Below are positions 16,259 through 30,876 of a DNA stretch of 41,678 bases, piece after piece. The notes below the pieces were generated by a model, which was not told the origin of the DNA, did not search any database, and saw only the letters and a program-made list of their open reading frames with translations. Position numbers and translations under genes: made by a program. This DNA is from Pseudomonadales bacterium (GTDB lineage: Bacteria; Pseudomonadota; Gammaproteobacteria; Pseudomonadales; Pseudohongiellaceae), in contig JAJDVS010000100.1 in NCBI GenBank assembly GCA_022825945.1, positions 1 through 41,678 of the forward strand, read 5' to 3'. Each line of letters begins with the position of its first letter. The first letter of the stretch is position 1.

Positions 16259-17161
16259 CCGGTGACTACGATAGCCGATGCGCTCGCAAGCGCCCGGAAA
16301 TTGCCGGGCGCCGCAGACAACTCCCGACTTGATGGCGAACGCTTGCTCGCCCACGTGCTTGGCGTCAGTCGCAGCGCATTGTACGCCCATCCCGAACGAC
16401 CGATCGGCGACCGGGAAATCAGCGAGTTTCGACGGCTTCTCAAACGGCGAAGCAAGGGCGAACCCATTGCCTACCTGTTGGGAAACGCGGGCTTCATGCA
16501 CTTCCAGCTTGCGGTCGATCCCTGTGTACTGATTCCCCGCCCGGAAACCGAATTGCTGGTGGAACTGGCGCTGGAATCCGCCCCCGAAAACAAAAACGGC
16601 CCCCTGCAAGTCGCCGACCTCGGCACAGGCAGCGGCGCCATCGCCATCGCCCTCGCGCGGGCCAAGCCGGACTGGCTCATCCACGCCGTGGACATCAGCC
16701 CGCAAGCCCTGGCCCTCGCCCGCCGCAATGCCCGGGAACTGGGCGCCAACAACATCCGCTTCCGGGAAGCTTCCTGGTGTGAGGGTCTGGCGGATTCCGC
16801 CCATGACATGATCGTCGCCAATCCGCCCTATGTGGCGCTGGGCGACCCGGCGCTGCATCCCGATTGCGCGTTCGAGCCCGACGTGGCCCTGTTCGCGGGA
16901 GCGGACGGCCTGTCCGCTATTCGCGAAATCATCGCCCAGGCCGGGCGCTGCCTCAAGGCCGGCGGCCTGCTGCTGCTCGAACACGGCCACGACCAGCGCG
17001 AGCCAGTGGCCGGGCTGCTCTCCGCCGCCGGATACCGCGACATCAGGCACTGCCAGGACCACGCCGGCCACGACCGGCTCATCTGTGCCAGGGAAGGCGG
17101 GCGCCCTCCCGCAAAATCCCCAAGGAGATTCTGCGACTACGCTTCGCTTCGCGCAGAATGA
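16244..17161 (+). CDS. prmC: Release factor glutamine methyltransferase
   Basis: 305 residues (E. coli 277). Methylates the Gln of GGQ in RF1/RF2. Seen: N-terminal helical domain with EPIAYLLGNAGF and VLIPRPETELLVE, SAM motif VADLGTGSGAIAIALA, acidic VDISPQALALARRNA, and the catalytic NPPY in IVANPPYVALGD. The C-terminus is odd: after LICAREGG the last residues, including RRFCDYASLRAE, are encoded by a family-2 repeat that also supplies the stop (TGA 17159-17161). The start is the second ATG of a 22-bp tandem duplication; no clear Shine-Dalgarno. TTG 16238 is also in frame. Confidence 0.95.
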   Translation: MASSKPVTTIADALASARKLPGAADNSRLDGERLLAHVLGVSRSALYAHPERPIGDREISEFRRLLKRRSKGEPIAYLLGNAGFMHFQLAVDPCVLIPRPETELLVELALESAPENKNGPLQVADLGTGSGAIAIALARAKPDWLIHAVDISPQALALARRNARELGANNIRFREASWCEGLADSAHDMIVANPPYVALGDPALHPDCAFEPDVALFAGADGLSAIREIIAQAGRCLKAGGLLLLEHGHDQREPVAGLLSAAGYRDIRHCQDHAGHDRLICAREGGRPPAKSPRRFCDYASLRAE

Positions 17162-17163
17162 CA
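17125..17163 (-). repeat. Family-2 hairpin repeat ending prmC
   Basis: Copy reading GAGATTCTGCGAC ... CGCAGAATGACA; the TGA in GAATGACA is the prmC stop codon. Confidence 0.85.
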
Positions 17164-28851: not shown

Positions 28852-29544
28852 ATGCGACTGAATGACCTGAAACCGGCCCCGGGCAGCGGCAAGGCGAGAA
28901 AGCGCGTCGGCCGCGGCATGGGCAGCGGTTTCGGCAAGACCTGCGGCAAGGGGCACAAGGGGCAGAATTCCCGCTCCGGCGGCGGCGTTCGCCCCGGATT
29001 CGAAGGCGGCCAGATGCCGTTGCAGATGCGCCTGCCCAAGTTCGGCTTCACCTCCCGGGTGGGCCGCGTGACCGCCGAGGTGCGCACTTCGGAATTGAAC
29101 CGGATCGATGCCGAAGTCATCGACCTCGACGCCCTGTGCAAGGCCGGCGTGGTGCAGGCCAATATCAAGCGCGCCAAGGTCATGCTATCCGGTGATGTGA
29201 CCCGGGCGCTAACCGTGCGGGGGTTGCGGGTCAGCAAGGGCGCCCGGGCTGCCATCGAAGCCGCCGGCGGCAAGATCATCGGCGACTGGGACCAGAGCGC
29301 CGGGGAAGATGCGCCCCCCTCTACGGAAGACACGTCCCCCCCTGCGGAAGACACGTCCCCCCCTGCGGATAAAACGCGCCCCCCCGCTGTCATTCCGCGC
29401 GAAGTCGCGGAATCCCGGGCAGATGGCGCGAAACCTGAAAAGGGTGGGGAAGATTCGGGAGATTCTGCGACTCCGCTTCGCTCCGCGCAGAATGACAGTG
29501 AAGGGAAAGCCGCGCGGAATGACAGTGAAGGGGAAGCCGGGTAA
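28852..29544 (+). CDS. rplO: 50S ribosomal protein L15 with an 88-residue C-terminal extension
   Basis: 230 residues against 144 in E. coli. Residues 1 to about 142 are canonical: [60 protein letters not shown], and [20 protein letters not shown] ending EAAGGKI. Residues 143-230 have no counterpart in the family. They start with seven-residue repeats (DTSPPAE type, DNA repeats around 29313-29385), then translate family-2 hairpin repeats ([35 protein letters not shown]). The extension is acidic and Pro/Ser-rich, probably disordered. The stop lies 6 bases before secY. Confidence 0.95.
29313..29538. repeat. Tandem and family-2 repeats inside the rplO 3' end
   Basis: About three degenerate 21-24-bp units rich in C (29313-29385), then a family-2 short copy (29388-29415), a full family-2 copy inverted (29459-29497), and a 27-bp tandem duplication (29485-29511 and 29512-29538, differing at two positions). 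All are read in frame by rplO without a stop. Confidence 0.85.
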
Positions 29545-29550
29545 TCCACC

Positions 29551-30876
29551 ATGGCGAAAGCACCAGGCATCAATCCCGAGAACATCGGCGCCGGCCTTGG
29601 CGAGTTGAAGTCGCGCCTGCTGTTCTTGCTGTTCGCGATTTTCGTCTATCGCGTGGGCACCCATATTCCGGTGCCGGGAATCGACCCCCTGCAATTGCAG
29701 GCCTTTTTTTCCCAGACCGAAGGCACCTTCGCCGACCTGTTCAACATGTTCTCCGGCGGCGCCCTGGAGCGCATGAGCATCGTCGCCCTGGGCATCATGC
29801 CCTACATTTCCGCATCGATCATCATGCAATTGCTCACTGCGGTCAGCCCCCAGCTCGACCAGTTGAAGAAGGAAGGCGAATCGGGCCGGCGCAAGATCAC
29901 CCAGTACACCCGCTGGGGCGCCCTGGCCCTGGCCACGGTGCAGGGCACCGCCATGACCATGGGCCTGCTCACGCCCCTGGCCTACAACCCCGGCCCCGCC
30001 TTCACCCTCACCGCGATCATTTCCCTGGTGACCGGCGCCATGTTCCTGATGTGGCTGGGGGAGCAGATCACCGAAAAAGGCGTCGGCAACGGCATTTCCA
30101 TGCTGATCTTCGCTGGCATCGTGGCGGGTTTCCCGGCCGCCGTGGGCACTTCCCTGACCCAGGCCTACGAAGGCCAGATCAATGGCGTGCTATTGCTTGT
30201 GGTGGGCCTGATCGCCGTTGGCGTGGTGGGCTGCATCGTCTATGTGGAGCGCGCCCAGCGCCGCATCACCGTGAACTATGCCAAGCGCCAGCAGGGCCGC
30301 AAGATGTACCAGGCCCAGGCCAGCCACCTGCCGCTGAAGATCAACATGGCTGGGGTGATTCCGGCGATTTTCGCCAGCAGCATCCTGCTTTTCCCGGCCT
30401 CCCTCGGGCAGTGGTTCGGCCAGTCCGAAAGCGCCGAATGGCTGCAGGATCTCGCCCTGCTCATCGGCCCCGGCCAGCCGCTGTACATCATCATTTTCAG
30501 CGCGATGATCATCTTTTTCTGTTTTTTCTACACCGCGCTGGTGTTCAACCCGCGGGACGTGGCGGACAACCTGCGCCGCTCCGGGGCGTTCATTCCCGGC
30601 ATCCGGCCCGGCGAGCAAACCGCAAAGTACATCGACGGCGTAATTACCAGGCTGACCATGTTCGGCGCGATCTATATCACCCTGGTCTGCCTGCTGCCGA
30701 ATTTCATGCAGATGCTGGCCAATGTGCCGTTCAACCTCGGTGGAACGGCATTGCTGATTTCCGTGGTGGTGACCATGGATTTCTGGTCCCAGGTGCAGTC
30801 GCATCTGATGTCGCATCAATATGACTCGCTGATGAAGAAGTCCAGGCTCGGCGCTTACGGCCGGTCGGGAATCTAG
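29551..30876 (+). CDS. secY: Preprotein translocase subunit SecY
   Basis: 441 residues (E. coli 443), the ten-helix channel of the Sec translocon. Seen: [20 protein letters not shown], the plug/TM2 region [54 protein letters not shown], the cytoplasmic loop [20 protein letters not shown], and ending [16 protein letters not shown]. No clear Shine-Dalgarno at normal spacing; translation may be coupled to the altered rplO end, 6 bases away. Confidence 0.98.

Follow-up and report, generated by a model that had tools for sequence, protein, structure and literature searches.

How does a ribosomal protein gene come to end in a long tail coded partly by dispersed repeats, and what keeps such a tail open up to the next gene? 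The question was raised by rplO in the window, i.e., the whole 41,678-nt stretch of DNA analysed here. The ORF (28852-29544) encodes a protein L15 of 230 amino acids, the last 88 of which form the tail, open throughout. The NCBIfam model rplO_bact (TIGR01071) was matched over its length (residues 2-142, model positions 1-143 of 144, 158.5 bits for a cut-off of 77.95), and secY lies directly downstream. The match ends at residue 142, as does that of Pfam Ribosomal_L27A, so that residues 143-230 lie beyond the model. The original prediction had described an open, repeat-bearing tail of 88 residues with two hairpin repeats, a 27-bp tandem duplication, an acidic composition, and a stop 6 nt before secY; all of these were recovered, but the tail starts at 29278 and not, as had been proposed, at 29279.

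The tail is composite (Table 1). Three 21-bp Pro-rich units were delimited by the repeat finder (29304-29366), and reading of the peptide brings the number to about four. These seven-residue repeats, also announced by the original prediction, are local tandem copies and not dispersed repeats. The 27-bp duplication (29483-29509 and 29510-29536) shows 93% identity between its copies. Dispersed-repeat sequence accounts for 62 of the 264 tail nucleotides, about a quarter, not counting an additional incomplete arm within the 27-bp duplication; thus, the claim that dispersed, mostly intergenic repeats have become coding in a core ribosomal protein was supported, but not that they make up the whole tail. 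With 21 acidic and 9 basic residues, the tail has a net charge of −12, versus +18 for the core. In an AlphaFold prediction based on a 19-row alignment, residues 151-230 had pLDDT values of 40-54 by block, consistent with disorder. Confidence in the model as a whole is low, however (mean pLDDT 63.6, pTM 0.38), and core residues 21-70 score poorly as well (42-56), which counts against a firm assignment of the tail as disordered. A similarity search of plasmids found no tail-like DNA.

Table 1. Coordinates of the features discussed in the text. Positions are those of the window unless a locus is given.
Feature	Coordinates	Strand	Evidence or remark
prmC (start approximate)	16262..17161	+	Last residues and stop codon within repeat copy 17127-17162
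rplO core, L15 residues 1-142	28852..29277	+	TIGR01071 match, ORF
L15 tail, residues 143-230 and stop TAA	29278..29544	+	ORF; codons 29278-29541, stop 29542-29544; no helix or strand predicted after residue 143
Tail start IGDWDQSAG, clade-specific	29278..29303	+	GDW motif common to 10 close loci whatever the tail
Pro-rich 21-bp tandem units	29304..29387	+	Repeat finder and alignment
Short hairpin repeat copy, 26 nt, read VIPREVAE(S)	29389..29414	+	Identical in window, L002, L003, L005
Spacer between hairpins, 46 nt, fast evolving	29415..29460	+	Commonest spacing elsewhere 22 nt
Long hairpin repeat copy, 36 nt, inverted	29461..29496	-	+ strand read as 12 residues
27-bp tandem duplication over 3' arm of long hairpin	29483..29536	+	Two copies in window and L003, one in L002
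secY	29551..30876	+	Start codon 6 nt past L15 stop
TruD with long insert	L119 (G000 C112), 533-1924
MurB with repeat peptide between its two Pfam domains	L208 (G022 C90), L242 (G103)

The locus was compared with 80 others (L002-L081), from which ORF extraction recovered 38 (36 with a secY start), the other 42 being missed by its motifs. Among the 80 loci, the match extended to at least query residue 220 only in L002, L003, and L005 (genomes G083, G032, and G021, respectively; the window belongs to G000), and all three have a repeat-coded tail. In these four assemblies, the tail is open to a homologous stop by secY, and hairpin order, frame, and spacer length are alike. Among the window, L002, and L003, all indels have lengths divisible by three and affect the tandem units and the duplication of 27 bp; by reading, the Pro-rich units number three in L002, two in L003, and none in L005. 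In the alignment with L005, gap placement was ambiguous, with both hairpins and the stop in register. Since four assemblies keep the frame open, the loss of a stop near residue 145 through sequence error is very unlikely. An assembly or binning artefact, by a lost stop or a chimeric join, might be suspected because the close records compared (L002-L011) are titled metagenome-assembled genomes, but the four assemblies have the homologous tail and stop in common and yet show their own differences. Sequence error and chimera were thus rejected, and the chance that such an artefact produced the tail is negligible.

Tails of variable length and sequence were common among the loci read. The window and 10 other sequences with the GDW motif have tails of 14-120 residues, so that an end at residue 142, which the original prediction took as canonical, holds for the family model but is not the norm in this lineage. 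The repeat peptide was absent from the tails of L004 (genome G018), L007, L009, and L010, and L004 has an unrelated 120-residue tail despite an L15 match 97% identical. No single unrelated tail conserved among the relatives, which would have spoken against the original prediction, was found. As variable tails are common in the relatives, the repeat seems to have entered an existing, labile tail. The secY start lies 6 nt past the L15 stop in 10 of the 11 GDW-motif sequences and 10 nt past it in the remaining one. Among 26 more distant loci with a measurable gap, this distance was 1-95 nt, and a fixed secY gap is therefore no general need.

The origin of the L004 tail was searched for separately (L004 3442-3786, i.e., G018 C18:55567-55911). 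The 115 residues used as query matched, in the 84 genomes of the genus, only themselves and two weak candidates (E 0.006-0.007); the best matches were at E 0.07 among phages and E 0.03 in PHROGs, and there was none in the PDB.

To count the dispersed repeat, we used the pattern GTCATTCN{6,36}GAATC, with the reversed pattern as a control. The window contained 11 matches at 10 distinct places, versus a mean of 0.27 in shuffled sequences, and its own genome (G000, 2.64 Mb) contained 321 (169 + 152), versus 0 for the control; this genome-wide count includes some overlapping matches, and a few of the matches listed do not look like the repeat. The presence of the repeat in the tail is not due to chance. 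Among the 84 genomes of the genus, counts were raised in nine (G000, 321; G083, 274; G032, 225; G021, 223; G018, 171; G103, 85; G022, 70; G104, 59; G073, 50) and ranged from 3 to 42 in the remaining 75.

Neighbouring copies pair in inverted order. In a sample from the own genome, 15 of 28 pairs consisted of a 26-nt hairpin, a 22-nt spacer, and a 36-nt hairpin, and this commonest composite measures 84 nt. The six reading frames were open in 17, 16, 9, 7, 0, and 0 of 17 distinct composites, the L15 frame being the one open in 7. Each L15 hairpin is predicted to fold as RNA when taken alone (−11.1 and −10.9 kcal/mol). Many dispersed copies and a palindromic stem-loop structure, here seen in the single hairpins and in the inverted composite, are traits of protein-coding palindromic repeats. 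The repeats avoid genes: 28 of 29 copies in a contig-order sample lay outside predicted genes, whereas the same caller, a simple codon-usage model made for this analysis and not a published gene finder, called 80% of that DNA coding. In a sample chosen by similarity, 45 of 51 copies lay outside genes. With this caller, six of 75 copies in the own-genome set and 18 of 129 in a wider set (111 outside) fell within ORFs, both sets being biased because many loci were picked by similarity to the L15 copy. At the tail, the one Rfam match up to E 1 (E 0.94) fell far short of its gathering score. The printed repeat form GTCATTCTGCGC was not found in literature text, and GTCATTGCGAG was matched there only in papers which, judged by title, deal with other subjects.

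L15 is not a special case, as the repeat is also coding in TruD, MurB, PrmC, a DNA methylase (G018), and a GIY-YIG protein (G000), and in an open frame of G083 related to the methylase frame but with no Pfam match. TruD has a long insert of tandem repeat-coded units in G000, a shorter one in G083 and G032, and none in seven other genomes. In MurB, the repeat peptide occupies one spot in G022 and G103 and is absent from seven others; G021 yielded no match to MurB. In G000 and G083, unlike G032 and G022, the repeat forms the end of PrmC and contains its stop; no PrmC was extracted from the available stretches of G018, G021, and G036. In these three conserved proteins, the repeat is in frame and is absent at the homologous place in relatives.

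Taken together, a dispersed family of repeats is found in frame in L15 of four genomes and in several other proteins, and the homologous L15 stop before secY has been kept. The explanation that we consider quite probable is that L15 already had a C-terminal extension, probably disordered and tolerant of sequence change, into which a small palindromic repeat of mobile type, 84 nt long in its commonest form, was inserted in frame, and that tandem duplications and deletions then altered the tail while keeping the frame. The element would have been moved in trans by some enzyme, and insertions in L15 may survive thanks to the disorder of the tail and to a unit whose length is divisible by three and which lacks stops in some frames. 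Judging from the sequence, the tail would be translated and coupled to secY, and both the frame and the 6-nt gap may have been kept by selection for L15 in its full length and for translation that continues into secY without a break. The variable gap of the distant loci counts against this last step, and a review, in its accessible part, calls it unclear how secY is regulated within the spc operon of E. coli (PMC10931766). Most likely, the tail is tolerated rather than useful, and the peptide itself is probably not needed. That the acidic tail has a selected function, either on the ribosome or away from it (a flexible charged antenna, for example), seems quite improbable: tails are common in the loci read, and those of the window and the 10 other GDW-motif sequences are all net negative (−1 to −13), but four of seven tails from more distant loci are net positive, and neither length nor sequence is conserved even between L15 proteins that are 97% identical.

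The same relatives were used to follow the history of the insert. A GTR+G tree of the L15 core and SecY was built from the window and 15 loci, one of the 17 chosen having been dropped when no secY start was found. The window, L002, L003, and L004 grouped together, with L007 next, while L005 was placed with the repeat-free, short-tailed L009 (support 96) and L010 (95). This placement counts against a simple insertion history, since one ancestral insertion then needs several losses. Two histories would fit: repeated loss of an old insertion, or a gain of the repeat by L005, be it separate or by transfer. A second insertion or a transfer into L005, which would be compatible with in-frame insertion into an existing tail, is possible but has the lesser chance of being correct; it agrees with the tree and with the occurrence of the spacer end GATTCGGGA at another genomic copy (C9:5822). 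However, of the 39 pairs sampled in five genomes, no others than the four L15 copies showed the 46-nt spacing, which favours a common origin of these copies. The spacers, which have 26-28 of 46 bases in common, appear to favour it weakly, as codon shuffles reached such similarity in 715-1419 of 20000 cases once the last 9 nt were removed.

Plain tolerance of the tail does not predict the low rate of synonymous change observed in the hairpins. Between the window and L005, the most diverged pair, we counted 1 synonymous change per 16.2 sites in the hairpins, versus 38.3 per 114.5 (34%) in the core and 9 per 10.7 in the spacer. At the rate of the core, no more than 1 change in 16 has a binomial probability of 0.013, a value that comes from one species pair with few sites and is not proof. 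Moreover, the lone synonymous hairpin change has a counterpart in a Q to R replacement by which pairing in the stem is restored. Selection on structure would produce this pattern, but so would copying from other genomic copies, because both paired variants are common among the copies listed; intergenic hairpins offered too few alignable places to serve as a control. That the hairpins are kept for a role as nucleic acid, in the structure of the rplO-secY mRNA or as a DNA-binding site, with the peptide as a by-product, therefore appears unlikely, even though both are predicted to fold alone. In the longer stretch 29380-29545, hairpin 1 is predicted to pair with the 27-bp duplication and not with itself, and the lack of the repeat peptide in L004, L007, L009, and L010 and the poor Rfam score also speak against such a role. 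We are similarly doubtful that the insert is of dual use, with selection acting on the hairpins as structures of mRNA or DNA where rplO meets secY and the nucleotide structure, not the peptide, maintained. If this were so, a ribosomal protein would have acquired a coding mobile element kept for its nucleotide structure.

We looked for an enzyme that could have moved the element in an in-frame insertion of this kind. REP and BIME elements are mostly extragenic and consist of unlike hairpins, inverted relative to each other and separated by a spacer. The repeat described here is alike in these respects but differs in that Y1_Tnp (PF01797, RAYT-type) was absent from all nine genomes searched, while 5 of 14 control genomes were positive. 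REP/RAYT mobilisation was rejected on this ground. DDE_Tnp_1 gave five matches in G000, but no enzyme was linked to the element; this and the absence of Y1_Tnp count against the insertion explanation.

A closer parallel is provided by the palindromic elements of Rickettsia (RPEs) and Wolbachia. In the accessible parts of the published accounts, RPEs are palindromic repeats of about 100-150 bp found in frame in conserved proteins, where inserts can occupy one position across orthologues and fall in regions exposed to solvent (PMC10969869, PMC3767692, PMC2229807), and an RPE-carrying guanylate kinase is described as translated and active (among PMC10969869, PMC3767692, PMC2635572, PMC11764897, PMC2229807). 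Likewise, the present repeat is a dispersed palindrome that enters conserved proteins and leaves its hosts unbroken. It differs in being an 84-nt inverted composite of two hairpins, in its lineage (Pseudomonadales/Gammaproteobacteria by record titles, versus Rickettsiales for RPEs proper), and in lying mostly between genes, whereas nearly half of the RPEs of R. conorii are reported in ORFs in the portion available (PMC10969869). The ATGAC motif, described as frequent in RPE-4, RPE-6, and RPE-7 (PMC3767692), also ends the present element (GAATGAC), a likeness at the level of the motif. By their description, Correia/NEMIS, ERIC, and other bacterial MITEs are similarly short and stem-loop forming, some with open frames fused to genes (accessible text of PMC2229807). 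The element would thus work like an RPE in another lineage, a likeness of behaviour. No ribosomal-protein host is named in the accessible parts of three RPE accounts (PMC3767692, PMC2229807, PMC10969869), and among the publications listed by our search, none was about such a repeat in rplO as judged by title and abstract start; with most subscription papers outside the search, this is no proof of absence.

The mechanism is of a known kind, in another lineage and a striking host protein, with frame and stop kept. Protein-coding palindromic repeats, described mainly from Rickettsia and Wolbachia in the accessible literature, are extended to a gammaproteobacterial clade. The relatives form a group of uncultured gammaproteobacteria whose small hairpin repeat lies mostly between genes; among close members, a given site may be filled in one and empty in another, and the hosts include a universal ribosomal protein. 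Identity across L15 core and SecY is 97-98% between the window and its nearest relatives, so that coding repeats can be traced over short distances as they are gained, expanded, and lost, and the question arises of how far the tail of a ribosomal protein may vary.

Finally, two hydantoinase frames, L186 (G103) and L196 (G104), also carry the repeat, and both end inside a repeat copy that supplies the stop codon. Seven of the eight host proteins submitted to Pfam, a set that left out the second hydantoinase, gave a match.
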